Origin: a virus
Direction: 5' to 3' (one strand)
Length of the DNA: 27,903 nt
IMG/VR virus record: IMGVR_UViG_3300025873_000034
Location: 1-27,903 of that record
The notes beneath the pieces were generated by a model that worked only from the letters and a program-made list of their open reading frames with translations, was not told the DNA's origin and ran no database searches. A program made the position numbers and the translations under genes. Shown piece by piece: positions 7,410-26,000 of the stretch; the stretch's first letter is position 1; each line of letters starts with the position of its first letter.

Positions 7410-8264
7410 ATGGCCGTAACCATTAATGCTAAGATAACAACTGTTGCCGATGTGGTAAATAAATATCTTGATGAACACATAAATTTTTTGGCAATAGATT
7501 ACAAGCGTCCGGTATCAGCATGGAAACAGATGGAGCCACATCTCGGATCTGTCCCCATAAATAAATTAACTGGTGCTATCGTTAGCTCTTACATAAGAAA
7601 AAGAAATGTTAGTCCCGGTACAATCAACCGGGAGATAGGAGTTCTAAACTCTGCCCTGCGGTGGGCCAATGCTCAAGGATATATTGACCGCCTAATATTT
7701 ATTCCACGCCTACCATCTCCCCCGCCTAGACAACGATGGTTGACAGAAGAGGAATGCACAAGGCTTCTCAGGGCAGCGAAAAAGTACCCTCATGTGTACG
7801 CATTTATTGCCATTGCTCTGTTAACAGGACAGAGGAAAGAAGCAATCTTGTCGTTGCTGTGGGAACAGGTCAGATGGAGTGAAGGATATATAGACTTCAA
7901 TCAGGATGATCCACTTTCCGGCAGAAGAAAGGGAAGGGCTGTTATCCCCATAAGCACGGAGATGGAGCAGCTATTGCACAGCCTTCAGTCCAATAGCCTA
8001 TATGTTGTTAACAACAATGGGAGAAGGGTTCGGGATTTCCGAAAGACATGGGGAAAGATTATAAAGGAAGCGGGTCTCGAAGGAGTTACCCCGCATACTA
8101 TTCGACACACAGTGGCTACGCAGCTAGTGCGAAAGGGAGTCCCAATAATAGAGGTAGCAAAACTTCTGGGACATCGAGACAGCAGGATAACAGAAAAAGT
8201 ATATGCGAAGTTCAGCCCCGACTACTTACAGAACGCTACTGAAAAGTTGTCGATTGCTGCGTGA
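7410..8264 (+). CDS. int: Tyrosine recombinase (phage integrase)
   Basis: This 284-residue site-specific recombinase is the likely enzyme for insertion into and excision from the host chromosome. An N-terminal SAM-like core-binding domain covers about 10-95. The catalytic domain follows with LLTGQRKEAILSLLW (R142), the beta-hairpin Lys near GRRKGRAVIP (about 174), HTIRHTVAT (H229, R232), LLGHRDSRITEKVYAKF (H255 and nucleophile Y265). All catalytic positions are present, so it should be active. There is no arm-binding AP2-like domain, which fits its modest length. GAGG lies six bases before the ATG. It is the last plus-strand gene and converges on the small zinc-protein gene, overlapping it by 29 bases. 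No excisionase or att core is recognisable nearby. Confidence 0.95.
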   Translation: MAVTINAKITTVADVVNKYLDEHINFLAIDYKRPVSAWKQMEPHLGSVPINKLTGAIVSSYIRKRNVSPGTINREIGVLNSALRWANAQGYIDRLIFIPRLPSPPPRQRWLTEEECTRLLRAAKKYPHVYAFIAIALLTGQRKEAILSLLWEQVRWSEGYIDFNQDDPLSGRRKGRAVIPISTEMEQLLHSLQSNSLYVVNNNGRRVRDFRKTWGKIIKEAGLEGVTPHTIRHTVATQLVRKGVPIIEVAKLLGHRDSRITEKVYAKFSPDYLQNATEKLSIAA

Positions 8265-10091: not shown

Positions 10092-13000
10092 TATTCCCTC
10101 CTGAGAATTTCGGCCCTTCTGTCTGTGATGTTAGAAACAATTTCATTTGAAAGCCTGTCGATGTCCATCAACATTTCTTTCTTACGCTCGCCACTCATGC
10201 CACGGTCAGACTGTACTTGGCGTCGGAACTTACGCAGTCCATCCAGTTGATCCTTGGTATCGGCAATAGCATCTTTATAGATAGCAATATTCTTTCTTGA
10301 TCTAAGATAGTCAGTAGCTCTTCTTGGATCTGTCTCCGACAAAGTTTTAAGAGAGTTGTTGAATATATCCAGTTCATTATAAAGTTCATTGAAAGCCTGT
10401 ACTGGGCCACGCCCTTGCTGTTCCTGAAGGAACCGTGCCATCGGTGGCTGTTGATCCAGCCTCCTGTCTGCCCTGTCTGGAATACCAGCCGCATTTCTCA
10501 TCACAGAATCAGCAGCCATCAAGGCATAGCTACCAAGTGTTCCTGTGTAACCCCTGATCATATGGTCTATCTGTTCTGCCGACCACCTGATCCTCATCTT
10601 CTCTTCCAGAGCCTCCGACAATTCAAGTGACAGCGGTGATACATACTCTGGATCAGCAAGCCATGACTCATTCCGCTCGCCCCAGTAAGTAACAATAGGT
10701 CTGCCAGCATACCAATTATGGTTGGTCATACTCTCAAGAATAGGCTGGAACCACTGCGGGAAAGAAACATTAAACGTAGTAGTCAGATGCCGAAGAGCAG
10801 ACTCTCTTGTGTGAGTTAAATCAGTCTCACCATCTATTAGCCGCATAATTCTTTCTGGAATAACCTTGAACAGGACACCAACCTCAAATGGTATCGGTAT
10901 TCTGTAAGCTGGAGTCTCTGGCCCCACATCCATACCGAACCATGTAGGTGGAATAATCCAGTAGTTGTCCTTAATATATTCCGGGGCATTGTGATACCAC
11001 GGGTTCTCGTCTTCATCTCCCGTGGCCATTTTGTAGGCTATGGTTAAAGCTACGATCTGAGCAGCCCTGAAATAGAACCTTCTCTTTCTGGTGGCGGCAT
11101 CCATACGGGGTGTCATCTTCCCTGTAGCGCCACGATACAAAACATCCAGACCTTGGATGCGTGCGTTTAAGAATGGAACCACGGCAGTAAGATACCTGAC
11201 GGCAGCACTAGCCCCCTTCCGACTAAAGTTGATTACCTCAAGGGCCTCTATGATAGCGGCGGTCTCATCACCTGTTTCTTTTAATACACGCTCATACACA
11301 GCAATACGGGTAGCAGTATCGGATGCACCGCTAAGTTTGTTAGCCCACTCCCACATAGATCGTGCCGGATATCTATGAGGAGACTTCATCCTCAGATGTT
11401 TCCTGAATGCTTTGATTGCATTCTTCGGGTCACCCTTAAAATCATAACCGCCCACTGCTCCGCTTGCTTCCAATGCTGCGGCACTGGAAGAGTTGAGGAG
11501 CGCCTGACCATATCCTTTCAAAGTACCTATAACCGGGATCATCTTAACCCCAGAGGTCGTCCATGCACTGATGGTATCACGAAGCATATTCGCTGCCATG
11601 AACGCAGGATCTTTTGTTACCAACTCCCTTAGTAGGGTAGCTGGAGCAGCCTGTAGACCAAGGGCTGGCATGTTCACATCATCAGTGATCATAAGTGAGT
11701 CCAGCATTAAACTGTCCTGCACCTCATACCACCAAGTTTCTCCGTTCACCCTGACCCCAACCAGAGACGGGTGGACTTCTCCTCCCGGTGGTTGATCACT
11801 TTTGGTAGGCTCAGATGCCAGACCAAGCTCTCTTAAATCCCTGATACCACGACTGACCAGCATATTTTGGAGAGATGATGTAACAGCAGCATCTAGATTG
11901 CGGAGCATGTTGTTAAGAGGATCAGCTATACGCTGATTGTCAGCAGCAACTCTTATCTGTACATCCGGTCCATTCCGATCACGAAGCTGCTGAACCCTTT
12001 TAAATAATTCATCGCTCTTGGAACTAAACCTCTGATGATCAGACACATTGTTGACCATAATCCAGTATACAGGCTTGCCGCCCTTCAATTCTCTTGGAGT
12101 CTTGGTGCTATAGAAACTAGAAAGCATCCTGTTGTTGGAATCTTTCATGCTCCTATACATGACATCTCTTGTCGCCACACCCTCTGGGCTTATGACTTCA
12201 TAAGTAACCCCAGCGTCATCGAATAGTTCACGATAGAAGGGGAGGTAATCTGCGTTAGCCTTCCATAATTCAGCAGCTTCAGCACTGATGACACTACTGT
12301 CACGCATGATGTTAACCACTGCGTTATTCCACAACTGATACTTGCGGTATGCCCTGTCAATTGCAGGACTTACTTCTCCAGCACGCAGACCTATCTCTAT
12401 ATCCTCATCTGTGAATGTCTTCTCGCGGCCCTCCGCTATAAATCTTTGCGCTCTTCTGGCTGCGGCATACAGGAAAAACTCTCCCCATAATTGTTCCTTG
12501 TCTATCTCGGCAAGGATATCAACAAGGCCAGCAAGCTCAGATGGATCTTGTATGCGTACCTCTTCTTTTGTTACTGGGTCTATGTACGCTGTATCTTCCA
12601 CCATCCTGTCATAGGCAGCTTTATATTGCTCTGCTATTCGTGGATCACTGTGATTTATAAGACCTTCATGCAGAGCATAGATCCTGCCACGGTCTCTGAT
12701 GAGAAATCCCTTTGTTATCCCGGCAGCAGTTATGCCAGATTTCCTACTCAGGAGAGCAGCAGCAGATGATGTGGCAGAATCAAGAGCTATGTCAGCGTCA
12801 ACCCCCGACTCCTTACGGAGCTTTATCCTCTGCCTTTCTCTGGCAATAAAGCCTGCAAACCTATCAACTATTCGCTGTCTAAACTTTGTTCCGAATGTAT
12901 GGTCAGCAGGATCAGTGGCTCGGAACATGGAAAAGATTTTCTCAAAGAAAGTCTGGTCGCCACCTGTATTCATAACCCTCTCTGCGGCTTCCCGCATATC

Positions 13001-16000
13001 AGGTTCCATACGGTCAAGCCCTCTATCAATAGAATATTTTCTCCTGATAGCAGGATCTAGGGTCAGCTTCTCTTGAAACAATGGCGGCTTATCAGCGGCT
13101 GCTTTAACAGCGTCCTGAATACCACGCTGCTTTGCCAGCCGTACCTTTCTTTGCATATAGTCTGACATTGGCCGTTCAATACCTATATTCGTAGCAGGCA
13201 TGGGAGCAGGTTTGTCAGTCTTACCGTCTGAAGGACCATTCCATCCCGTAAGCAATGAGATAGCATGTTTCCCTGCAAGGTCTGGCCTTCTTATAAGCAC
13301 CCTTGGATATGCGCCGTATGGAATACGATGGAATATAAATACAGATGGATACCCAAGATCAGGGCTAGTCCATTCCATTCTTACTTTTTCAAACCCGGCA
13401 GCAGTTCCTTCTTTGTGTATAACAAACCCTGCCGCCTCCGGGTTATTACGGTTAGGCCAGTACGCTTCCATCGCGGCTTCCAATAAATCCCGCACTGAAT
13501 TGTATTTGCCATTAGTATTCTTAGCTACTTGAGTGTCATGCTCTCTAGCAATAATGTGTGCTTCCCCGAATCCAGTTTCGGCCTGAACACTTTCAGACCA
13601 CTCATGGTGACCCTTGGGGATGAATACTTGGCTTACCTCACCGTCATACAGTAAGCTCTTCTCTGTTTGATACACAGGATTAACAACATCTACAGTAACT
13701 GGTTGCTCAAAGTTTTTGAGTAACCGTTCAACAGTTACCTCTGGCTCACGGTCTATAGCAAACTTTCTTGTCGGGGCCACTTGCTCTGGTGCTATCTGTT
13801 CTAATCCAACAAGAGAAGCATCAACTGTTGGATCGCCAGTCCTTACAAACTCAAGGGGGAGAAGGTCAACCTTCTGTTCAGAGAACTGTCGTTCCCGTAG
13901 TGGTAGTTTCTCTACCCCTTCTCTGAAATTAACCCAGCTATTCTGGCCTCTTGTTTCAGAAGTTAACGCCCATCTTGCCCAAGGACTTTGCGTCATTAAC
14001 ATATGGTTACGCCATGCAGCTTCTTCTCCTCTCGGCCCGAAGGTAACAGGTGACATGGTGTGTGCATAATAATCATGGACAGCACGAAGCGTATCATTAT
14101 AGACAAGGGGCCTACCATTGACATCAGTTCTTCCACTGTCAGCAAGCAATGGGTGGTTGTCATATACAACTCCGGGTGGCCCGAATCCTTCTGCATCAGT
14201 GCCTTTTATATAAAGATGATTATTAGACAGCACATCTTTCCTCATGGCCTGTGACATCTTCTTGCCATCGTAAGGCTCACCTCTTCCTTCCCATACCTCT
14301 ACCTTGATAGGCATAGCGTCATACTGCTGCCCAACTTCATCTGCAAGTTCTTCATATGCACGGCGTACATCAGGCTCGCTCAAGGCATCCATCCTCATAT
14401 CATCGAATGCCTTGGCTATCCTCTTCTGTAAAGCACGCTTCTCTTTTGTTATTGCTAGCGCTTGTTGAGTTGGCTTGAATAAACGATTAGATAGACGGGA
14501 TGCTACGCGGAGCGCGGAGGCTGAGGCTTGGTCATCTTCTGAGAGCCGAAGGTCACCTTGTATTTCTTCGTAGCTGTTGGTTGCCTCTTCTCCACTGCCG
14601 TAGACCCAGAGTCTTTGAACATCTCTCCTAGTATCGCTGATGCTTCTTCCAATGGATTGCCCTGCGCGTTCCGTAGCCTTGATAAAATCTGCGATTTTGT
14701 TGGCATTATCAGGATCTCCTACATAATAAGTTTCAAGGTATTCATCAGTGGCTGTTAGCCCAGCAAGGCCAGAAGATTTAATTGCCTTCTCAATTTCTAG
14801 CCTAGACAGCGGAGAAGCTAATTCAAATCTAACAGTAACAGTGTTATACGATCCATCTTCATACTTAGTCCCCCAAACAGAGAGTGGTTCTACATCTTCT
14901 CGCACATGAACTTGGCTCTGATTAAAGTTACCAGCAAACTTAGCCAAAACAGATAAAGAAACATCTCTATCCGGCTCCAAGAAAGATGCCTCCATACCAA
15001 TAGCTGGCTCTGCATCACCAAAGTACAAGCCACTGGCTGGGGTCAAGGTAAGCTCTAATGATTCAATACCAGAGGTAAGATACCTGAGAGAGTCAGCAGT
15101 TATCTCCTGAAGCAGGACTGCCGCGCTTTCATCTCCATTATTAGCAGCAACTGTAAGATTCTTAATTCCCTCAATCTCATCCGTAGAAGAGGACAGGTTA
15201 ACAAGTATCCTTGCCCTAGCTATATCTGCTTCAGTCTGCGGGACTTGAGGCAAATCCCTCTCTATAGCAAACTTTCTTCCCGTCCAGTCTTTTGCAAACC
15301 TATTCACATAGAAGTCAGGGTCTTCAAGCGCACGATCAACTACATATTTAGCCTCATCTAAAGTATTTGTTGGGTCTAACTCAATCTCCTGTTCCCCATC
15401 CCTAAAAGCACCAGTGCCTACGATCCTGTTATATTCTTCTCCCTCTATTTTAGGATGTCTAACATACCACCGCAAATAATCAGCACCCTCTTCTCGGCTA
15501 TACCTCTCTAGTTCAAACCCACGATACATATAAAGTCCGGGCTTTAATTTCGTAGCTGTCTTCTTGTTTATTTTGAGAGCAAAGGCTTCTTTCTGGATAG
15601 AGTTAGTATCCCTATCTATAGAGAACTTCCTTGTCGCTGCATCTGGAAGGTCAGGCTCTGTCTGGCGTATCCTCTCCAAATACTCCTCTGCTTTCTGTGC
15701 ATCTTCAGGAGTAATCTGTTCTGCTGCCGCAACAGGAATGATGCGCCTAGCTGGAGTCTCTGGTTCGCCATACAAACGGACGAACACTTGATTGCTGTTC
15801 CTGATATCTGCACTGGTGAGACCATTCTTCAGGGCAATAAAGAAGTCTACGATACGCCTGAACAATGAAGCTGGTTTGCCAGACACTCCCTTGCCAGCGG
15901 CCCAGTCACTAAAGCCATTGGCTATTGCCTCTTCAATAAATAGCTCTTCCTGTCTCTGCTCAGTCTCATTGGAATACTTGCCAGCCTTAGTATATATTCT

Positions 16001-18970
16001 CTTGGCTTCCTCGTACCAAGTTTCCTTTCCTCTTGTGGCAGGAGCGGCCTGCTTCTTCACAAACTTGGTGAGTAACTTCCACTCCTTGTCAGTGATAATC
16101 CCTGCCTCTTTTAAGCCATGAATCACCTCGTGGTTAAGGGTATCACCTAATGCTTTAGCGGCTTCCTTAACTGTTGAATTAGGTTTGATTTTATCTAGGG
16201 CCAAAGAGATAATCAGTCTCTTGCCCTCCCAATCAATAGTACCCTTATCCCCAGCCAAGGTATCAACAAACTTTGCCCTTAACCCATCCATCTTCTTTGC
16301 GAGATCAGGATTATTCTTGGTGTATTTATTTAGCCTTTTCTTAATCTCTTTCCCAACAGCAGCAAGTACCGCTCTTCTACCACCCTGTGCCTCAAGCCTT
16401 CTGCTTACCTCTTTGTTTATACTGGCAGCAGCAAGCTCTGCTTTGTACTGTGCAGACGCCTCGTCCAGAGACATGGTTGAATCAACAGTTCTCTCTGATC
16501 TCTTTATGATGATCCCTCTGCCTGTACCACCAGTATCTTCAGGAGGGATTCTCAAACGGGCAGAACGCCGCCAATCAACAGCAGCAACACGCCCTCTCTC
16601 AGCGGCAGCCTCTACTTCTCTACCCCTAGCAGCCTCCGCTGCTCTGGCTTCTACTTCTACCTGCTCACCACGAGTGAATGGCGTTGTGCCTTCTATGTCC
16701 TCTTGCTTTACAGCCCTTCTGATCTGAGCGAGGGTTGGCTTCTTGCCTTCCTTAGTCGGTACTACGGTAGGCTTAACTCTATATTCCTCATGCCAAGCCT
16801 TACGGTTAACCACATCTTTATGGATGTAGGTATTCTTCTTGCGCGGCACTACGATCAGATCGCCTCTAGCAACCGCACTATCAAGGATAGCCTCAGTAGG
16901 AACCTTGGTCTTTCTCTTTCCTTCAAGAGCCTTGGTTATATCAGACCTTAACACCTCTCCTTCACGGAGCTTCCTGTCAGGCCGCGCTGCCTGTGTGCGT
17001 GCAGCGGCCATAGCAGTGATATACTGAGAGCGGTTAAACATTGGCCGCTCAATAGTTGGTAACGACTGAGGAGTAGTCCCCGGCAATGTCGGTAATTCAT
17101 TCAATGCACGAGCAAGATAGTAAAGCTGGGTGTTAGACATCCTGTCTAAGTTCTTACTGCCTACCTTACGAGCAGCAAATCTCTCAAATCCGGGGTCATC
17201 TATTTTGATGTTCCTCTGATAGGCAAGACTTGCAATGGCAGTCTTGTTCCAAAACTCAAGATCAACTTCTACAAGCGGTGGGGGCAGTAACGCATCTATC
17301 TTATTCGGATCTAGTCCAATAGCATCAAGCTCCTCTACTGGAACTGTATCGCCTTCTACATACTGTCTTTGTCTCGTCTCACTTCTTCTTTGATTAAGCC
17401 TGACGGCATCAGCGTCAGCCATATCATTAAAGTCTATCATTGTATCTGGTCTGGTGAGGATAGCAGCCGCCCTGAGAAGGTCGTTGCGTTCATCAACCCC
17501 TGCTTTCCTGAGCGCCTCAGTTGCTAGGATTTCTGTCTCTGCCTCATCCTGCTGTCTCAGGATATCATTGACCCCGATATTAAGCTCATCACTAAACAGT
17601 TGTGCCTGTGCCTTGGTAGAGAAACGGGGAGAAGCACGCACCCCATGCTTTGTCTCTACAAAAAAGCCGCCATCCTTGTCTTCAGGCAACATCACTGGCT
17701 CACCACTGGCATCCAATACCGGATCACCTGCCGTATTAGTGGCCGGGATTCTATCCGGGCTTATCCTGTAAACATCAGGTGTACCTGTCTCATCTGTGGT
17801 GATAAGCCCCCTGTTGAATGCCAAAGGAATATCAGTGCCAAATTGGGCAAGAGTATTCTGTGCCAACAATGCGGCATCTTGATCAGGAGGAAGTACCTTC
17901 GTGCTTGATGCACTATGATCTTCCAATTGTAATAGGGGGGGAGTGATAGGTGGGCCAGTGAGAAGCAATGGCTCAAGTGGTTCAGTTGTCTCTTCTATAG
18001 GCTTGTCGGTAGTATCTTTTGCCTTCTGAGGGCCACGCATATCCCTGTCTTTATATGTCTGTAAGCCAGTACCAATTAGGCCACCAACAGCAAGCGCTGC
18101 TGCACCAGCTTCAGCGTATTCCATTAATGCGTCTGGAGTTGTTAGGTCTAATCCTGCCTGCCAACGCTCTGCCATTTGCTGGTATATTTCAGCCGGGACT
18201 TCAGTAGCAGCGCCTTTGGCAGCACCGTGTTGCATAGATGTGAATACGCTCCTAGCGGCTTGTTCCACAACCTCCTTCCCAGCCTTTGAAAAAAGACCAC
18301 CAGTAATAAGGAACAGAATATACTCAGCAGCAGCCTGTGTCGGAGCAATAAGAACAGCCTGCGATATCTTTAGCTCTTCCTGAGTCTTGGCCCCTGCCTC
18401 TATTTGACGTTGAATATTTGTTCCAATGAACTGTAATGAAGCAGATGTTATGAAACCAGCAGCCGCACCGGGAGGGCCAGCAAGGAAAAATCCTCCCGCA
18501 GCAGCGGCAAGCGGAGTAACCAACCACGGAACAGATCCAGCAAAGGCTTCAGATACAAACTGAGGTATCCTGCTTGCAACTGTTAAGACACCTTCCTCAT
18601 TATATAATCTTGCGAGTTCAGCAACATTCATAGGAGGAACTTGATTTGCCCGCTCCCTATTCTCCTCTATTAACTCAGCCCGCTCTTCCTGAAACTTCTC
18701 CTCAGTCCCAAAAGCAGCACCATAGAAACCCGGTATATCTGCTAACGTGCCAAAGCCTTCCTTCCCTGCCCTCCATGTGCCACCGAAGAGATCACCTACA
18801 CCAGAGAAGGGACCTTCCTCTTCTTCCTGTGGAGGGGGGACAAACAAACGTGCATCGAACTCCTCTCTGTCCATATCAGAGTAATATTTATTATACAAAT
18901 TATCAGCCACTTCCTGATCACTCATATAATTGTATTGTGGATACTTACCCCTAAACTCTTGAAGGTTCAT
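10091..18970 (-). CDS. Giant polyvalent internal virion / DNA-ejection protein
   Basis: This is a 2959-residue, roughly 330-kDa protein, placed like T7 gp16 just before the lysis genes. The N-terminus (FRGKYPQYNYMSDQEVADNL, then YYSDMDREEFDARL) is a helical module I associate with phage virion proteins. Residues about 110-315 are Ala/Gly-rich and hydrophobic, suited to membrane passage. A zincin-like site lies at 947-951 (HEVIH) with E1013/E1014 as candidate third ligand. Four RK(F/Y)(S/A)I(D/E)R linkers at 1114, 1232, 1735 and 1977 separate further modules. One has RAVHDYYAH (about 1629-1637), one is BECR nuclease-like (GFGEAHI, H1805), and a C-terminal LPD38-like region has PFLNARIQGLD near 2600. 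It is likely packaged and injected with the DNA, acting as an enzyme carrier. Module names are by recognition; ejection is inferred from order. Confidence 0.93.
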   Translation of the reverse strand: MNLQEFRGKYPQYNYMSDQEVADNLYNKYYSDMDREEFDARLFVPPPQEEEEGPFSGVGDLFGGTWRAGKEGFGTLADIPGFYGAAFGTEEKFQEERAELIEENRERANQVPPMNVAELARLYNEEGVLTVASRIPQFVSEAFAGSVPWLVTPLAAAAGGFFLAGPPGAAAGFITSASLQFIGTNIQRQIEAGAKTQEELKISQAVLIAPTQAAAEYILFLITGGLFSKAGKEVVEQAARSVFTSMQHGAAKGAATEVPAEIYQQMAERWQAGLDLTTPDALMEYAEAGAAALAVGGLIGTGLQTYKDRDMRGPQKAKDTTDKPIEETTEPLEPLLLTGPPITPPLLQLEDHSASSTKVLPPDQDAALLAQNTLAQFGTDIPLAFNRGLITTDETGTPDVYRISPDRIPATNTAGDPVLDASGEPVMLPEDKDGGFFVETKHGVRASPRFSTKAQAQLFSDELNIGVNDILRQQDEAETEILATEALRKAGVDERNDLLRAAAILTRPDTMIDFNDMADADAVRLNQRRSETRQRQYVEGDTVPVEELDAIGLDPNKIDALLPPPLVEVDLEFWNKTAIASLAYQRNIKIDDPGFERFAARKVGSKNLDRMSNTQLYYLARALNELPTLPGTTPQSLPTIERPMFNRSQYITAMAAARTQAARPDRKLREGEVLRSDITKALEGKRKTKVPTEAILDSAVARGDLIVVPRKKNTYIHKDVVNRKAWHEEYRVKPTVVPTKEGKKPTLAQIRRAVKQEDIEGTTPFTRGEQVEVEARAAEAARGREVEAAAERGRVAAVDWRRSARLRIPPEDTGGTGRGIIIKRSERTVDSTMSLDEASAQYKAELAAASINKEVSRRLEAQGGRRAVLAAVGKEIKKRLNKYTKNNPDLAKKMDGLRAKFVDTLAGDKGTIDWEGKRLIISLALDKIKPNSTVKEAAKALGDTLNHEVIHGLKEAGIITDKEWKLLTKFVKKQAAPATRGKETWYEEAKRIYTKAGKYSNETEQRQEELFIEEAIANGFSDWAAGKGVSGKPASLFRRIVDFFIALKNGLTSADIRNSNQVFVRLYGEPETPARRIIPVAAAEQITPEDAQKAEEYLERIRQTEPDLPDAATRKFSIDRDTNSIQKEAFALKINKKTATKLKPGLYMYRGFELERYSREEGADYLRWYVRHPKIEGEEYNRIVGTGAFRDGEQEIELDPTNTLDEAKYVVDRALEDPDFYVNRFAKDWTGRKFAIERDLPQVPQTEADIARARILVNLSSSTDEIEGIKNLTVAANNGDESAAVLLQEITADSLRYLTSGIESLELTLTPASGLYFGDAEPAIGMEASFLEPDRDVSLSVLAKFAGNFNQSQVHVREDVEPLSVWGTKYEDGSYNTVTVRFELASPLSRLEIEKAIKSSGLAGLTATDEYLETYYVGDPDNANKIADFIKATERAGQSIGRSISDTRRDVQRLWVYGSGEEATNSYEEIQGDLRLSEDDQASASALRVASRLSNRLFKPTQQALAITKEKRALQKRIAKAFDDMRMDALSEPDVRRAYEELADEVGQQYDAMPIKVEVWEGRGEPYDGKKMSQAMRKDVLSNNHLYIKGTDAEGFGPPGVVYDNHPLLADSGRTDVNGRPLVYNDTLRAVHDYYAHTMSPVTFGPRGEEAAWRNHMLMTQSPWARWALTSETRGQNSWVNFREGVEKLPLRERQFSEQKVDLLPLEFVRTGDPTVDASLVGLEQIAPEQVAPTRKFAIDREPEVTVERLLKNFEQPVTVDVVNPVYQTEKSLLYDGEVSQVFIPKGHHEWSESVQAETGFGEAHIIAREHDTQVAKNTNGKYNSVRDLLEAAMEAYWPNRNNPEAAGFVIHKEGTAAGFEKVRMEWTSPDLGYPSVFIFHRIPYGAYPRVLIRRPDLAGKHAISLLTGWNGPSDGKTDKPAPMPATNIGIERPMSDYMQRKVRLAKQRGIQDAVKAAADKPPLFQEKLTLDPAIRRKYSIDRGLDRMEPDMREAAERVMNTGGDQTFFEKIFSMFRATDPADHTFGTKFRQRIVDRFAGFIARERQRIKLRKESGVDADIALDSATSSAAALLSRKSGITAAGITKGFLIRDRGRIYALHEGLINHSDPRIAEQYKAAYDRMVEDTAYIDPVTKEEVRIQDPSELAGLVDILAEIDKEQLWGEFFLYAAARRAQRFIAEGREKTFTDEDIEIGLRAGEVSPAIDRAYRKYQLWNNAVVNIMRDSSVISAEAAELWKANADYLPFYRELFDDAGVTYEVISPEGVATRDVMYRSMKDSNNRMLSSFYSTKTPRELKGGKPVYWIMVNNVSDHQRFSSKSDELFKRVQQLRDRNGPDVQIRVAADNQRIADPLNNMLRNLDAAVTSSLQNMLVSRGIRDLRELGLASEPTKSDQPPGGEVHPSLVGVRVNGETWWYEVQDSLMLDSLMITDDVNMPALGLQAAPATLLRELVTKDPAFMAANMLRDTISAWTTSGVKMIPVIGTLKGYGQALLNSSSAAALEASGAVGGYDFKGDPKNAIKAFRKHLRMKSPHRYPARSMWEWANKLSGASDTATRIAVYERVLKETGDETAAIIEALEVINFSRKGASAAVRYLTAVVPFLNARIQGLDVLYRGATGKMTPRMDAATRKRRFYFRAAQIVALTIAYKMATGDEDENPWYHNAPEYIKDNYWIIPPTWFGMDVGPETPAYRIPIPFEVGVLFKVIPERIMRLIDGETDLTHTRESALRHLTTTFNVSFPQWFQPILESMTNHNWYAGRPIVTYWGERNESWLADPEYVSPLSLELSEALEEKMRIRWSAEQIDHMIRGYTGTLGSYALMAADSVMRNAAGIPDRADRRLDQQPPMARFLQEQQGRGPVQAFNELYNELDIFNNSLKTLSETDPRRATDYLRSRKNIAIYKDAIADTKDQLDGLRKFRRQVQSDRGMSGERKKEMLMDIDRLSNEIVSNITDRRAEILRRE
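10571..11293 (-). other. LPD38-like C-terminal region of the giant protein
   Basis: Residues about 2560-2800. INFSRKGASAAVRYLTAVVP, PFLNARIQGLDVLYRG, an aromatic helix (RAAQIVALTIAYKMATGDED), then PIPFEVGVLFKVIPERIMRLI match my recollection of the LPD38 domain near the C-terminus of phage polyvalent proteins. The role is unknown; the hydrophobic helices may act in membrane or virion assembly. Confidence 0.55.
13022..13042 (-). repeat. Linker motif copy 4 (RKYSIDR)
   Basis: Residues 1977-1983 of the giant protein, at the end of the nuclease-like module and before the long helical C-terminal half. Confidence 0.7.
13043..13747 (-). other. BECR-type nuclease-like module of the giant protein
   Basis: Residues about 1742-1976. 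GFGEAHIIAREHD (G1800, G1802, H1805, H1811) followed by SVRDLLEAAMEAYW and a beta-rich tail (FVIHKEGTAAGFEKVRMEW) resembles the phage Barnase-EndoU-ColicinE5/D-RelE-like group of polyvalent proteins, which carry a GxGxxHI signature. Such modules are probable RNases. Linker copies 3 and 4 frame it exactly. Confidence 0.5.
13748..13768 (-). repeat. Linker motif copy 3 (RKFAIDR)
   Basis: Residues 1735-1741 of the giant protein, directly before the nuclease-like module. Confidence 0.7.
13769..15256 (-). other. Unassigned module with RAVHDYYAH and TETRGQNSWVN motifs
   Basis: Residues about 1239-1734 of the giant protein, between linker copies 2 and 3. The second half has H1632-D-Y-Y-A-H1637, then EEAAWRNHMLM and LTSETRGQNSWVNF. 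The clustered His, Asp, Glu and Arg residues look like a metal or catalytic site. I recall a similar His-rich block in other aquatic phage virion proteins but cannot name a family or reaction. Confidence 0.5.
15257..15277 (-). repeat. Linker motif copy 2 (RKFAIER)
   Basis: Residues 1232-1238 of the giant protein. With copy 1 it brackets a module of about 110 residues rich in charged strands (YRGFELERYSREEGADYLRW). Confidence 0.7.
15611..15631 (-). repeat. Linker motif copy 1 (RKFSIDR)
   Basis: Residues 1114-1120 of the giant protein, right after the zincin module. One of four near-identical heptads. Confidence 0.7.
15641..16333 (-). other. Zincin-like metallopeptidase module of the giant protein
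   Basis: Residues about 880-1110. DTLNHEVIHGLKEAGIITD contains HExxH (H947, E948, H951) followed by a GLxxxG turn. EELFIEEAIANGFSDWA about 60 residues later offers the glutamate third ligand. This matches zincin modules described in phage and conjugative polyvalent proteins. It directly precedes the first RKFSIDR linker, so it might process the giant chain or attack a host protein after injection. Confidence 0.6.
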
Positions 18971-18980
18971 AACCTTAACC

Positions 18981-21611
18981 TTATTTCTTCCAATTTAACG
19001 GATCATCATTGCCAGAACCACCTGATTGAATGCGACGTAACTCAGGAAATCTCTGATGTAGAGCCGCCTGAATCTCCGGGTCATTTATATATCTTTCATC
19101 TTGAGTGATCGCCCACATCTGGTACATCACCATTGACGTAGGATCATCTACAGTAGCGCCCTCTGGGAGAGACAAACCATTAGCTGCCATCCATTGCTTG
19201 AAAGGGCTGTCCCCAGCCAGTAACTCCCTATCAAACTTCTCATCAGCTAACTTCATTGCATCTGTTTTAACATCATTGATTGTGTTAAGAACGTCCTTTT
19301 TATATTTTTGTGCCGCAAAAAACGCTGTCTGTCCTGCATAACTAGGTGCTTTTGGGTCAACAGTTTCATAAGCAGTGGTGTAGGCGTGAGCAGTTGGAGT
19401 AGCTGTACCATCGGTAGCTACAGTAAACCATTTTGGATCATTCCCATGTTCTGTAAAGAGAGCTTTCAGCACATCTTGAGCCGCCGCCCTCTCAGTTCCA
19501 AAGAGGTTCATATGCGCGACATACTTCTGAGCCTCGATACGTTCTATATCAATATTTCTGCCAAGTGCCGCATCACGGGATGCGCTGGCGGAAGTGATAT
19601 ACTGAGCAGCCCTGTCTCTATCTCCTTGCACTTCCGCTCTTTGTGCTTGGGTAATCAACTGCTTCTGTGCAAAAATATCCGCAGCGCGTTGCGCTTCAAG
19701 TCCAGCCACCTGCATATCCAGATCGACCAGCTTCCCCATAGTCTCCAAGCCTTCTTTTCTTAATTCTTCTTTCCCTTCCGTGTAACCAATCATTGCATTG
19801 GTCATGGCTATCAACATGGGTTGACGGCCATTAATAGCAGCAGCAGCAGCACGCATCCACGGCAGAGGATTTCTTTCCAAAGCCTCAATAGACTTGGCTA
19901 TATGGCCCCGTATGTCCTTAACACTTTGCGGAACAACTTTCTGATCTTCAAAAGTTTTGAGATCAGCCGCTGCCTTCTCATTAATTACCCTTTCTCTCTC
20001 AGTGAAATCCCCCGCAAGCGCCTTTCTCTCTGCTACCATTTCTGACAAAGTAGAAACCGCAGGCAGACTAACGTCTCCGTCTAAGTCCTGTTTCTTAGTA
20101 ACGTTCAGCTTCGATATATCAGCATCACCTAAGTCCAGAAGTGTAACCTTTGGTGGTTCTTGCTGTGTTGCTTGCCTAATGGCAAGCTCTAAGGCTTCTT
20201 GGTCGTAACTTTGTATCAGGGCGCTGGGATCATCCCGCGCTTCTGGTGCTGCTCTCTCTTCCTTGCTAGTTAAGCGAGCAGGCGTGGCAGGAACTTCTCT
20301 TATTGGTTGGTCGTAACTTTTCTCTCCAGTACCAGTGACTGTTTCATAATATTCTGTTGGGTCATCAACACCACCTGCGTGAGAGACCATCCCCTCTTTC
20401 CAGTCTTCAGGCAATACTCCATATTTATCAAAATATTCCTGTAGCTTGGCCTCACTTATCTCTTGTGCGCGTAATTGCGATTTGCCTCCTCCTGCGGTAG
20501 CGACACTCACTCTTTCACTAGGACTAAAATCACCGCTAAAAGTAGGAACAGCTTCGCCAGCGGTAAGCCCTGATTGTTGGAAATAAGGAGATGATATAAA
20601 AGATTCGTAGCCACCTTTTATATCCCCCCTCCCAGCGCCCGGATACCTTGGCTCAACACCCTCTATTCCCACAAGAGGACGCTCCCCCGGAGGAAGATCA
20701 GCAGCAGAGGCAGGGAAAGGATTTCGCCTCATAAGTTCTGTAAAATCTTCTTCAGTAAAATACTGCCCTCTTGTTGCCACACTTGGTAAAATATCTTCAA
20801 TCCTTGACTGGCCCCAATCCACACCTTCCCATCCAGTAATGGCAGCCAATTCATTAGGTGCTACTCCCTGCATCCTGACTGTCGGTAGATTACCAACAGG
20901 ACCGCCACGAGAACCCGTCATACTATAGGGAAGTGTATCGGAACCACCATAAGCCCTGTCTCTTTCAACAGCCGCTAACTGACTGAGGATGCCACCAAAG
21001 GCAGGCTCTGATGTTGGCTTGGCCCCTTTTACATAAGCCTCTTCAAACCTTGCTTTGCCCTGTCCATACAAACGAGGATCACCCCTCTTCTGACGGGCAG
21101 CAGTGATCATAGCCCACATCTCAGGCGTTAATTTCGGCGTGTCTCTATTGGTTGTGAGGCTACCTATTGATTTACCGGGATACATAACAGGAGGATGGTA
21201 TCCTCTAACCGCCCTCACTGTTGGCATACCCCCGCCAGCCATTCTAGCGGTTGGGTTCTGTGCCGCCATCAATGCCTGTATGGCTGGGTTGGGCTGAGGT
21301 GGCGCTGCCGCAGCAGTAGCCCCTGCATTCGACAGGGGATTAGGTGCCGTCATATCTACTGTAGTATCGGGGGCCGCTTCAGGAATATTACCTACTGCAT
21401 CCATAAGACCATCAACCACAGTAGACGGCTGAGAAGCATTTTGTGCTGCTGCTTGTTGCGCTCCTGCTGTAGCTAAGTTCTTTAATTTCTTGTCAAGTTC
21501 TCCAGTCAAAATCCATATAGGAATATGGCTGCCTTCCTGAATATGTCTCCGAATTTGAGCAACAGACATATCTTTAACATCATCTGCTATCTGTACTAAA
21601 TTCCTAGCCAT
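18981..21611 (-). CDS. Large internal virion protein (876 aa), T7 gp15-like by position
   Basis: This protein has 876 residues. The N-terminus (MARNLVQIADDVKDMSVAQI followed by HIPIWILTGELDKKLK) is a helical module seen in other phage virion proteins. Residues 45-125 are Ala/Pro/Gln-rich and flexible. Two copies of the repeat motif shared with the 1487-aa protein occur: GGMPTVRAVRG (127-137) and GGPVGNLPTVRMQG (236-249). A long charged alpha-helical, probably coiled-coil region covers about 535-730 (for example VAGLEAQRAADIFAQKQLIT). The C-terminus is charged, ending GSGNDDPLNWKK. No enzyme motif was found. It lies 3 bases after the 333-aa gene and 10 before the giant gene, matching the T7 gp14-gp15-gp16 order. 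I infer an ejection-apparatus protein; homology to gp15 itself is not shown. Confidence 0.88.
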   Translation of the reverse strand: MARNLVQIADDVKDMSVAQIRRHIQEGSHIPIWILTGELDKKLKNLATAGAQQAAAQNASQPSTVVDGLMDAVGNIPEAAPDTTVDMTAPNPLSNAGATAAAAPPQPNPAIQALMAAQNPTARMAGGGMPTVRAVRGYHPPVMYPGKSIGSLTTNRDTPKLTPEMWAMITAARQKRGDPRLYGQGKARFEEAYVKGAKPTSEPAFGGILSQLAAVERDRAYGGSDTLPYSMTGSRGGPVGNLPTVRMQGVAPNELAAITGWEGVDWGQSRIEDILPSVATRGQYFTEEDFTELMRRNPFPASAADLPPGERPLVGIEGVEPRYPGAGRGDIKGGYESFISSPYFQQSGLTAGEAVPTFSGDFSPSERVSVATAGGGKSQLRAQEISEAKLQEYFDKYGVLPEDWKEGMVSHAGGVDDPTEYYETVTGTGEKSYDQPIREVPATPARLTSKEERAAPEARDDPSALIQSYDQEALELAIRQATQQEPPKVTLLDLGDADISKLNVTKKQDLDGDVSLPAVSTLSEMVAERKALAGDFTERERVINEKAAADLKTFEDQKVVPQSVKDIRGHIAKSIEALERNPLPWMRAAAAAINGRQPMLIAMTNAMIGYTEGKEELRKEGLETMGKLVDLDMQVAGLEAQRAADIFAQKQLITQAQRAEVQGDRDRAAQYITSASASRDAALGRNIDIERIEAQKYVAHMNLFGTERAAAQDVLKALFTEHGNDPKWFTVATDGTATPTAHAYTTAYETVDPKAPSYAGQTAFFAAQKYKKDVLNTINDVKTDAMKLADEKFDRELLAGDSPFKQWMAANGLSLPEGATVDDPTSMVMYQMWAITQDERYINDPEIQAALHQRFPELRRIQSGGSGNDDPLNWKK
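20866..20885 (-). repeat. LPTVRMQG-coding 20-mer, copy in the 876-aa gene
   Basis: CCCTGCATCCTGACTGTCGG on the plus strand. It differs at four positions from the copies at 24184 and 24931 in another gene and encodes the core of the same peptide motif. Confidence 0.6.
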
Positions 21612-21614
21612 CTC

Positions 21615-22616
21615 TTATGTCCCCATAACTGAGCGAGCCAGACCAAGACCACCAAGGCCGAAACCAAGCATTTGCTGGCCCATACTTGGTTGTGCTTGAT
21701 ACTGACTAACCTCTGAGATTGGACTGACAGGAACTCCGTGGAGGATGCCTCCATAGTAAGCCAGTTGCTGTCTCGGAAAATCTCTCTGCGATAGGAAGTC
21801 AGACAGTCCTATATCTAACTGTTGCTGTTCAAAGGCTCTCTGTTGCTCTCCTACCTGACGGAGAACATCCGCTCCTCGCAGCCCAAGGGCCTGTTCCTGT
21901 GCGCCCAACGCTGCCAACTGCGGTGCAGCCCGCATACCAAGCTGCTCCCCAGCGAGACCAAGGCGGGCCTCTTGCTGCGCTGCCTGCTCCTGTAACGCCT
22001 GCGCCCTAAGAGCGGCAGTCCTGTCGCGCTCAAATAATGTACCAGCCTCACGGAATGCCTGCGCTCTTTGGGTGGCCTCAAGATCACCCAGCCTGTCTTC
22101 CAGCCTTGACCTTGCCAGACCACTCGTTATCGCTTCGCGAGAGCCGCCAAAGGCTCCAGCCTGTGTAGCCTGAGCAGCAAGCTGTGGGGCAACATCTTCT
22201 TCAAACTGGCGGCGTGCGCGGGCCTGCTGGACATCAATAACATTTTCAACGAACGGATTCTGGTATCTCTCGGCTACCCCCGGAGCAGTAAAATCGCCGG
22301 GAGCGAACGTGCCTGCGGTATAGCCCGGTCTGAAAGCTGCAACATCCTCCAACCTCTGGCTTGCGATACCAAGTTGCTCAGGGACACCAGCGCGTCCGAT
22401 ATCACCTGCAATACCAAAAGATTCAAGTTGTTCAGGAGAAAACTCAGCCAGCCTCTGCCCCGGAAATGTTTCATACGGACGCAGGCTCTCAGCCTCTGTA
22501 CGCTCAAGAACATTCTCAAAGAAAGGCCGAACATATTCAGGCAAGTTCGTTTGCGTCACCGTCGATTCGGTTTGTGTCGGTGCTTGCTGCCCGCCGCCGC
22601 CGCCGCCTTTACCCAT
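21615..22616 (-). CDS. Gln/Ala-rich virion protein (333 aa), T7 gp14-like by position
   Basis: This protein has 333 residues from the ATG at 22616, chosen for AAGGAG seven bases upstream; a longer frame to 22679 is a shadow of the preceding gene. It starts MGKGGGGGGQQ, then NLPEYVRPFFENVLERTEAE, LRPYETFPGQRLAEFSPEQL, YQNPFVENVID and QATQAGAFGGSREAI. This string of motifs is characteristic of a widespread family of phage virion proteins in podovirus-like genomes, usually unnamed or called internal virion or head-tail-region proteins. The central part (about 150-290) is a long Gln/Ala/Arg-rich helix, probably coiled coil. The C-terminus is Gly-rich and hydrophobic. It overlaps the GNAT-like gene by eight bases. 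A part in the ejection complex is inferred from its neighbours. Confidence 0.9.
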   Translation of the reverse strand: MGKGGGGGGQQAPTQTESTVTQTNLPEYVRPFFENVLERTEAESLRPYETFPGQRLAEFSPEQLESFGIAGDIGRAGVPEQLGIASQRLEDVAAFRPGYTAGTFAPGDFTAPGVAERYQNPFVENVIDVQQARARRQFEEDVAPQLAAQATQAGAFGGSREAITSGLARSRLEDRLGDLEATQRAQAFREAGTLFERDRTAALRAQALQEQAAQQEARLGLAGEQLGMRAAPQLAALGAQEQALGLRGADVLRQVGEQQRAFEQQQLDIGLSDFLSQRDFPRQQLAYYGGILHGVPVSPISEVSQYQAQPSMGQQMLGFGLGGLGLARSVMGT

Positions 22617-23040
22617 TGTTTTTCTCCTTGAACATCTTCTCAAATACCGTGTACTCAGGTGTCCACCCATGAGGGGCAAGAACCTTTGTGAATCCTTTGC
22701 GTCCAGTCATCTCCACCCCGTCACAGTTGTTGTCTTTCGCCCATCTCTCCAGCGTCTCAAGCATTGGATCACGCCACTGCATGATCTTTTCTCCGCCTAA
22801 AAATTGACCAGCCAATAGACGTTTGTCAGGATAGTCCACAAATCTAGTGGTAAGTGCTGCGATAATCTTCTTATCGTCATCGAAGACAACCCAGAGATGC
22901 TGCTCAAAATTCACGATCTCTCTGAGAATACTCTTCATTGTATAACGGCCATGTGCCGTAGGAAGCGACTTCCCAAGAATTGGTTCTACCTGATCCCAGA
23001 TAGCAGAAACATAGTTATGATCGACTAACGAAACCTGCAC
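22609..23040 (-). CDS. GNAT-like internal virion protein (T7 gp13-like)
   Basis: This 143-residue protein starts at GTG, overlapping the previous stop by one base in TAGTG. It has GRYTMKSILREIVNFEQHLWVVFDDDKKIIAALTTRFVDYPDKR, FLGGEKIMQW, then LERWAKDNNCDGVEMTGRKGFTKVLAPHGW. The order of strands, the QLWVV-type strand, the YP-x-K-x-L loop and the GR-x-GF-x-x-x-L-x-x-x-GW helix fit the small GNAT-fold proteins found next to virion genes in T7-like phages, of which gp13 is the model. The acetyl-CoA loop (normally Q/R-x-x-G-x-G/A) is not clear, so acetyltransferase activity is doubtful and a structural or assembly role is more likely. It precedes the 333-aa gene, as gp13 precedes gp14. Confidence 0.8.
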   Translation of the reverse strand: MQVSLVDHNYVSAIWDQVEPILGKSLPTAHGRYTMKSILREIVNFEQHLWVVFDDDKKIIAALTTRFVDYPDKRLLAGQFLGGEKIMQWRDPMLETLERWAKDNNCDGVEMTGRKGFTKVLAPHGWTPEYTVFEKMFKEKNNG

Positions 23041-26000
23041 TAACCATAAGCCCTACGCAGTTGCTCTTCTCTCTCACTCACTATCATAGCCCCATTCTTT
23101 GCTGTCGGAGGCAGTCCAGCAGACTTCGCCTCACGCTCCAAACCATCAGCAGGCATTATGTATTCATCTTCACCAACCCGAAGGTTTGCTGTCTGCTTGC
23201 CAGTCTGTGGATCAACTATCATCCCCGCAATAACATCAGGCCCTTGGTTCTCTAAACGCACATCCATCTCAGACATACCCACAGTATCCTGACCATTAGC
23301 AGGTTTAACTATACCGCCCTTGTCTCTAGTCTCATTAACTAGAGCCTCTAATTGAGCAAGCGCATCTGCTCCGAATACTTCCACAAATTCATCCACAGCC
23401 ATCTGTGCTTCCTCATTCTCTAACTGCCCCTGTAAAGCAAGAAGCGCCCTGTTATAGATCGCATTCTCTTCTGCATTCTGGGGCTGCTCTGGTGTTGGCA
23501 TAACCATGCCTCTTTCCGCTAAGTCAGCTTGAGCTTCGGGAGTTGCTCCCTGCATTACACCAGTAGCTGTGATATCCACTGGCTCTCCAGCGACACCACC
23601 GAATTGTTTCTTTACTTCTCCAATGTCTGCTCCCGGTCTACGAGAAGCAGCATCTCGTCTGGCTTCCGCTATATGAGTAAGAACAGGGTATTTATCTTCC
23701 TTCCCACTTAAATATGGAGCCGATTGTAAGGTAGTTGATTCCTCTAACTCACCGGAACCGGGGGTCCAGTCATAACCTTCCTGCTTGCGTTCCCAAGCAC
23801 GGAGCGCCGAAGGCACAGTCCGATTTACAAACATCGATGTACCCAAACCTCTACCTGTACGCCTCAACTCACCCTCAAGATAACGAACTCTATTGGCCTC
23901 CTCTTCGCTATCTATCCCATTTTCCATAAGTTGCCGAAGTTCTCTCTCAGAGTCCTTAGCCGTCCTCGTCTTCTGCCTCTCCTCTCCAGTACCATAAAGT
24001 TGCAAAGCGGTACTTGCGGCAAGCCCAACCGGCAGTATCGACGCACCACCAAGAACCGCAGCGCCCCCACCAACAGGTGTATCCAGAAAGTCCGAAGCAC
24101 GATCAACCATATTGATCATGGGGTTCACCCTCACAGTAGGATCTGCGCCAGTGTATATATTCCCTCTGTCCCGGCTTCTCCTCCCCTGCATCCTAACGGT
24201 AGGTAAACCAGCTATACCGCCTTGTGCCTTACCATAAGTAAGAAGGGCTTGTTGTGGATCAAACATTTCAGCGCCATAAGGAGGTATGTTTCTCCTTTCT
24301 CTGGGGACTTCAAACCCCATTCCTGCCTGTCTCCCCCTAACCTGCGGAACACGCTCTTGTGCCACCCGCTGAAGGGCCATTGCACGAGCAGCTTCATCCT
24401 CTCGCTGCGCTTCTGGCTGATTAAGTTTCTTACCTGCCAGCATAGCAGCTATCATTGCCCCTACACTAAGAGGCCCACCAGCAAATTTTGACGCTACTTT
24501 AGGAACATTCCTTACAAGGTTTCTAGTATCAATCTTGGCATCAAGATCTTTCCACTGATTAGGAGCAAGGATTCTATCCAGCCCACCCTGTTGCTTTATA
24601 GCTCTTTCTATACTCGCCTTCTCAATTTGCTTATTTAATAGCTCCGTTTTACCAGCATCTAAACTCTCTAATGCAGTACGCCACGGAGTCATCTCACCCG
24701 CCATCCTAACGGTAGGGAGACCAGCTATGCCTCCATATTGTTTCTTTACTTCTCCGAGTCTCAAATCCACTGGAACCTGAAGAGCAGCTTTCTGTTTTGC
24801 TAATGCCTCTCTAAGAGCTATCGCCCTGAGACGTTCCTGATTGGCCTCACTCCTCCCCCTGTTCTTAATATCCGCATAACCTTCCATAGCCTGAGCTAGA
24901 GCGGCTCTTTGATTAGATGGTATCTCTACTCCCTGCATCCTAACGGTAGGGAGATCACTAGCATATCCACCATTTCTGGCGAACATCTGTTGTCCCGGCA
25001 TCTGACCCGGAAGAGTTGGTTGGCGCTGGCCTGTTAACCCTGTTAACCCTGCTGTTAACAACGGGTCTTGTCTAGGAACAGGTGCAACTTGCTGTGGCCT
25101 AGCTTGAGCTTGAGCAAGCTGGTTCCTTAACGCCATTCTTGGATCTGTAGTGTAAAATCCTAGCCCTTTCGGCTGCGCTATGGCACCCAATCCTGTGTTG
25201 GCTGCTCCTGCGGCAGCTAACATATCCATAGCAGGACTTGATTTAGGCTGTTGTTGTTGTCCATACCCGGTTATCGCCCGTATTGTCGGCAAACCACCTA
25301 CATAACCGCCCTTGTTACCATAGGAGTAGTACTGATACGCGGGGTCAATGCCCGGTTGATAGTCTGCGGGTGGTGCGAATGCTGTTCGTGGACGAGGTAG
25401 ATACGGGCCTTGATAATCATAGGTATCGGGATACTCATTATCCCAATCATATTCAGGTGGATCAAATGCACCGAAAGCATCAGCAGTACTAGCAGCCAAG
25501 GCAGCCCCCGGCGCGAGTGTCTCTTTCAAGCCAACTGTACCCGGAGTGGATGCCCACTGTGTTGGGTCAAAATGTTGAGTTAACCCTTCCCACACACCCG
25601 CTGCACTGGGGTCTGCTCTAGCCGCTCCTTTCCCCGCTGCCATCAAAGCAGCATTTGGGTCTGTTAAAGATTGTGCCTGCAATGCCTTCTGCGCAGCAGC
25701 ATCCATTCCTGAATATAGTTGGTTTGGAACAGCGGCTTTTGCAGCAAGACTTTGGAAAGGATCAACTGGTACTGGGACATTGCTTGTGAGAGAGTTTGCT
25801 GCTGACAAAAAGGCATTGCCTCCCTGTGCGGCACTAGCTGGAAAACCTGTCCCCACACTTGACCCAACAAGATTCGACGGGTTGAATGCATATGCCCCCT
25901 GCGACAAACTTGTGGGGACTGTTTGAAGAGTTTGTGCTGCCAGTTCACCGCCAGCAACAGGCACCTGAGCGGCGGCTGCTTCTGCTGCTTGCGCTCCCGC

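Follow-up and report, generated by a model that had tools for sequence, protein, structure and literature searches.

The window analyzed here is a whole virus record of 27,903 bases, in which one phage-encoded chain of 2959 aa combines several unrelated domains (a zincin, a RAVHDYYAH module, a nuclease-like module and LPD38) and carries four near-identical heptads. This raises the question of whether the heptads mark the joints between modules and, if so, what reads them. A Pfam search of the 2959-aa protein placed LPD38, which is listed among the domains of large polyvalent proteins, near the C-terminus (E 7e-32, above cut-off), and an NCBIfam search of the same protein gave no match. The product is a large polyvalent protein, predicted to be packaged and injected with the DNA. 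Close upstream on the same strand, a gene (window 21615-22679, minus) has a match in a family of DNA ejection proteins (PHROG 4287, E 4.5e-21), in keeping with an injected cargo. Elsewhere in the window, the minus-strand ORFs at 23040-27503 and 18981-21611 have their own scattered short repeats (GGIAGLPTVRMQG, LPTVRMQG and MPTVRA), and a plus-strand ORF at 7410-8264 resembles, by eye, a tyrosine recombinase/integrase (HTIRHT...LGH motifs), which suggests that the phage may be temperate.

Table 1 Features of the giant protein, with residue numbers in the protein and positions in the window.
Feature	Residues (aa)	Window positions	Strand	Basis
Large polyvalent protein, 2959 aa		10091-18970	minus	ORF; Pfam LPD38; PHROG 9854/18222/3170
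Zincin module	892-1095	15686..16297	minus	Profile match (window itself among the profile's sequences); pLDDT 83-97 over ~aa 910-1049
Zincin HExxH (HEVIH)	947-951	16118..16132	minus	Invariant in 40 aligned zincins; downstream Glu pair aa 1013-1014
Heptad 1, RKFSIDR	1114-1120	15611..15631	minus	Pattern match; model pLDDT about 31-34
Cassette 1, small beta-rich module	1121-1231	15278..15610	minus	Missing in relative L002; structure model
Heptad 2, RKFAIER	1232-1238	15257..15277	minus	Pattern match; model pLDDT about 29
Cassette 2, including RAVHDYYAH module (PHROG 3170)	1239-1734	13769..15256	minus	Alignment of relatives
Heptad 3, RKFAIDR	1735-1741	13748..13768	minus	Pattern match; model pLDDT about 29
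Cassette 3, nuclease-like	1742-1976	13043..13747	minus	BECR-like by weak structural evidence; model pLDDT 81-95
Heptad 4, RKYSIDR	1977-1983	13022..13042	minus	Pattern match; position conserved in relatives whose upstream cassettes are unrelated; model pLDDT about 39
C-terminal helical module with LPD38	1984-2959	10094..13021	minus	Domain match

The first-pass annotation had reported heptads at aa 1114, 1232, 1735 and 1977, and all four are present there in the 2959-aa ORF. The pattern RK[FY][SA]I[DE]R thus occurs four times in the protein, compared with a mean of 0.0001 and a maximum of 1 in 20,000 shuffles, and it is absent from every other reading frame of the window. No heptad lies N-terminal of the zincin in the window protein. 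In the structure models, all four heptads fall at pLDDT 29-39 and are flanked by folded modules; low pLDDT alone is weak proof of disorder given the shallow alignments behind the models. None of the heptads was placed inside a folded domain, where it would have spoken against a role at module borders, and the models predict that they lie in exposed flexible linkers joining folded domains.

The segments between the heptads differ in how well they can be named. Cassette 2 consists of ~260 aa plus the RAVHDYYAH module, and relatives align over aa 1247-1730 as a single block. Hypothetical-protein genes of about 187 Mycobacterium phage records match the RAVHDYYAH module (window 13769-14473, minus), indicating that the module occurs outside this protein family. 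For cassette 3, a VIA comparison gave weak matches to the toxins BrnT and HigB (Z 4-6), and Pfam and PHROG searches gave no match. Foldseek returned nothing at E<=0.001 for either structure model, and in a second fold search matches reached Z<=6 at most, with the zincin part barely covered and another part of the model dominating the matches.

Gain and loss of whole segments in a close relative, L002, whose best segment is 87% identical to the window protein, revealed how the heptads relate to these borders. L002 lacks the whole of cassette 1 and retains a single heptad in its place, whose left flank corresponds to that of window heptad 1 and whose right flank corresponds to that of heptad 2. 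Its RAVHDYYAH and nuclease-like modules are separated by an additional stretch of roughly 160 aa that has RFSIDR on either side. This extra cassette (L002:6408-6878) shows an R...S-x-S...E-D-E pattern that by eye is like ADP-ribosyltransferases; Pfam and PHROGs gave no support for that likeness. More broadly, homology edges fell at the motif about 5 times as often as at random cassette-region positions in both protein sets described below (8.4% and 12.2% of homology starts lay <=5 aa from a motif, vs the 1.8% and 2.3% that cassette-region positions would give by chance), with most edges still elsewhere. A breakpoint tally (133/296), for which there is no null, serves as description only. At the C-terminal junction, 26 sequences whose upstream cassettes differ were aligned, and most rows retain a recognizable version of the motif (RKYSIDR, KKYSVKR, KRKYSLKR, DIRYSLK or KVKYSLP), with a few exceptions such as RYQIR. 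The position of the motif is thus kept in orthologues, and neither of the two refuting outcomes named in the first-pass annotation was seen. The earlier proposal that the heptads lie between modules held in its main point, as cassette loss and gain and the homology edges support the borders, and was refined in one respect, in that aa 1239-1734 form one cassette. We are therefore highly confident that the heptads are copies of a linear border motif in linkers joining exchangeable cassettes.

Comparison of related sequences indicates that the heptads are one lineage's version of a motif, [RK][FY]S[LI](R/K/D)x, that occurs in many phage large polyvalent proteins. In 110 long ORFs taken from related IMG/VR and phage loci (the first set), the looser motif [RK][FY]S[LI] occurred 128 times vs 19 in shuffles, counts that are not independent events because all samples come from module-based searches of related phages, and it ranked top among all 24 orderings of its four residue classes. 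Together, the shuffles and permuted motifs rule out a chance origin. In the 56 proteins where zincin and C-terminal module could both be placed, motif density per 1000 aa rose from 0.024 ahead of the zincin to 0.46 within it and to 1.41 across the cassette region behind it (~58 times the value ahead of the zincin), then fell to 0.17 in the C-terminal part; the remaining ORFs of the same loci had 0.04 copies per 1000 aa. Having been defined on the first set, the motif was then checked on a second, disjoint set of 41 zincin-seeded proteins from which proteins resembling the first set had been removed. Here the densities were 0.20 in the N-terminal part, 0 in the zincin, 1.72 in the cassette region and 0.05 in the C-terminal part, which confirms the enrichment in the cassette region. 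Copy number showed no significant increase with the length of the cassette region (rho 0.13, P 0.23).

The strict motif is not universal. It is lacking in 13 of the 56 long zincin proteins, many of which carry variants in the corresponding region (FSR, QYSI or DKEAR-type repeats). Among strict-motif-free relatives, L062, L066 and L113, L075 and L090, L046 and L056, and L016 carry linker-like repeats there, of the forms DKEAR(R/N)F, P(V/A/M)FSR, E(K/R)FSR and QYSIA(R). The distant HExxH proteins L311 and L312 have no strict motif. The PLxRFG domain, a name attached to a plasmid relative, was considered and dropped, as L311 has no PLxRFG string; plasmid searches returned only non-mobilizable records.

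We asked whether the signal resides in the peptide or in the DNA that encodes it. A DNA-level element (a promoter or recombination site) merely translated as the heptad might be suspected from the DNA of heptad 1, TTCTCTATAGATAGG, which has five loose matches in the window vs 0.9 expected, but the in-frame heptads account for four of the five. Variation at synonymous positions is in line with codon usage, with 10 codon identities among the window copies vs 9.0 predicted, and the amino-acid motif is kept across lineages. The codon analysis thus disfavors a DNA-level signal, which we regard as extremely improbable. Copies within one protein are more alike than copies in different proteins, mainly at the motif positions and most clearly at +4/+5, and the flanks are not. 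Conservation at the protein level over about six residues also speaks against a duplication scar or long duplicated linker, and the motif is likely selected and recognized as a peptide.

A protease is one candidate reader, and the zincin immediately ahead of the first heptad was the one put forward in the first-pass annotation. Its HExxH and downstream Glu are intact: H947, E948, H951 and E1013-E1014 are invariant in 40 sequences, and the model has helices at both places, while a Pfam search for the zincin module gave nothing above cut-off. Of the 56 proteins with a zincin, 32 had at least two motif copies; of the 30 that lack one, 2 did (Fisher P 2e-6, uncorrected for common ancestry). The suggested co-occurrence of heptad and HExxH module therefore stands for multi-copy proteins and does not extend to the 13 zincin proteins without a strict motif. 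Motif and zincin covaried in the first set (partial Mantel r 0.37, P 0.002), a signal that was not reproduced in the second set (r -0.03, P 0.60) and that we thus do not count as support. Zincin autoprocessing of polyvalent proteins was proposed in the main text of Iyer et al. 2017 (PMC5512222), and self-cleavage at the heptads by the resident zincin is plausible. Two known proteins argue against zincin cleavage: recombinant N4 virion RNA polymerase (vRNAP), which has an HExxH domain, stays whole, its structure having been solved with the chain intact (PMC12633501), and the phage P1 zincin protein DdrB, reported in the same main text to be processed before packaging (PMC5512222) and tried here as a positive control, has no clear [RK][FY]S[LI] copy. 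A further processed head protein of P1, DarA, is cleaved by the prohead protease Pro (PMC12810830). We place the chance that the motif is a protease site at somewhat below even, with the zincin as our best guess for the protease that would read it.

These data can be reconciled in several ways. The reading we favor, to which we give about an even chance, is a short linear motif at cassette linkers that is read as a peptide, likeliest by a protease, with the zincin as leading candidate. The giant protein would be packaged and injected alongside the DNA, and the zincin, which closely precedes the first copy, would cut it either inside the virion or once injected, freeing separate effectors. An incoming cassette with its own motif would join the processing scheme at once; cassettes that arrive already carrying the motif would explain why gains and losses occur at it. 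The full version of this scheme, in which [RK][FY]S[LI] is a cleavage code common to many lineages, each copy read by the protein's own zincin after one-chain delivery and brought along by newcomers, we hold only tentatively.

Alternatively, the motif may be a tolerated linker whose similarity permits in-frame recombination of cassettes and that is functionless in the mature protein. The chimeric heptad left by cassette loss and the heptad-bracketed gain in L002 fit this recombination adapter, as do the homology edges that coincide with motifs and the excess codon identity among copies in L063 (40 vs 18), L002 (17 vs 9.7) and L053 (15 vs 7.7), an excess also expected if cassettes sometimes bring their own linkers. 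The window and most proteins show no codon likeness beyond usage, however, and an adapter does not account for about six conserved residues without similarity in the flanks or for the same residues being retained across lineages at the C-terminal junction, so we consider it somewhat unlikely. It is also conceivable, though unlikely, that the motif is a docking or packaging signal that binds a virion or portal component, such that modules are held or threaded uncut. A short basic-aromatic-Ser-aliphatic motif in disordered linkers, present in several copies per protein and conserved at the protein level, would suit such a role, as would the neighboring ejection-family gene. Yet a single copy would be enough for packaging, whereas the copies are placed at borders and nearly missing from the N-terminal third; docking also does not predict the zincin association.

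The motif can be used as a ruler to divide polyvalent proteins with poor annotation into modules that can be expressed or submitted to structure prediction. It also offers a sequence handle on a question raised in 2017, namely if giant injected proteins of phages undergo processing, at which sites, and how modules are exchanged among them. Strings such as DIRYSL or RKFSID were not found in the open-access literature, and the six-residue border signature is apparently newly recognized here.

Comparison with known systems places the motif beside several domain families. N4 vRNAP is giant like the window protein and injected as that protein is predicted to be, and both combine long flexible linkers with an HExxH domain. 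In bacterial genomes, NPDIRYSL gave 56 matches, many of them short or out-of-frame chance matches, so that only the 16 in ORFs >700 aa were used. In bacterial contigs, giant ORFs with NPDIRYSL usually have ART-PolyVal (PF18760) as well, and in 9 of the 16 giant ORFs the motif starts within a few residues of the Pfam ART-PolyVal end; in phages, residues like the ART-PolyVal start (TPEF, then W-F) are enriched directly after the motif. The window has no ART-PolyVal match, and its cassettes are other modules, indicating that the motif is not tied to one domain family. The phage and conjugative-element polyvalent proteins described in the main text of Iyer et al. 2017 (PMC5512222) are likewise giant and multidomain, with swapped modules, a zincin and LPD38. 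Neither "linker" nor "RYS" occurs in that main text, and the border motif was not found in it; relative to that account, our analysis adds the motif and its role as a cassette joint.
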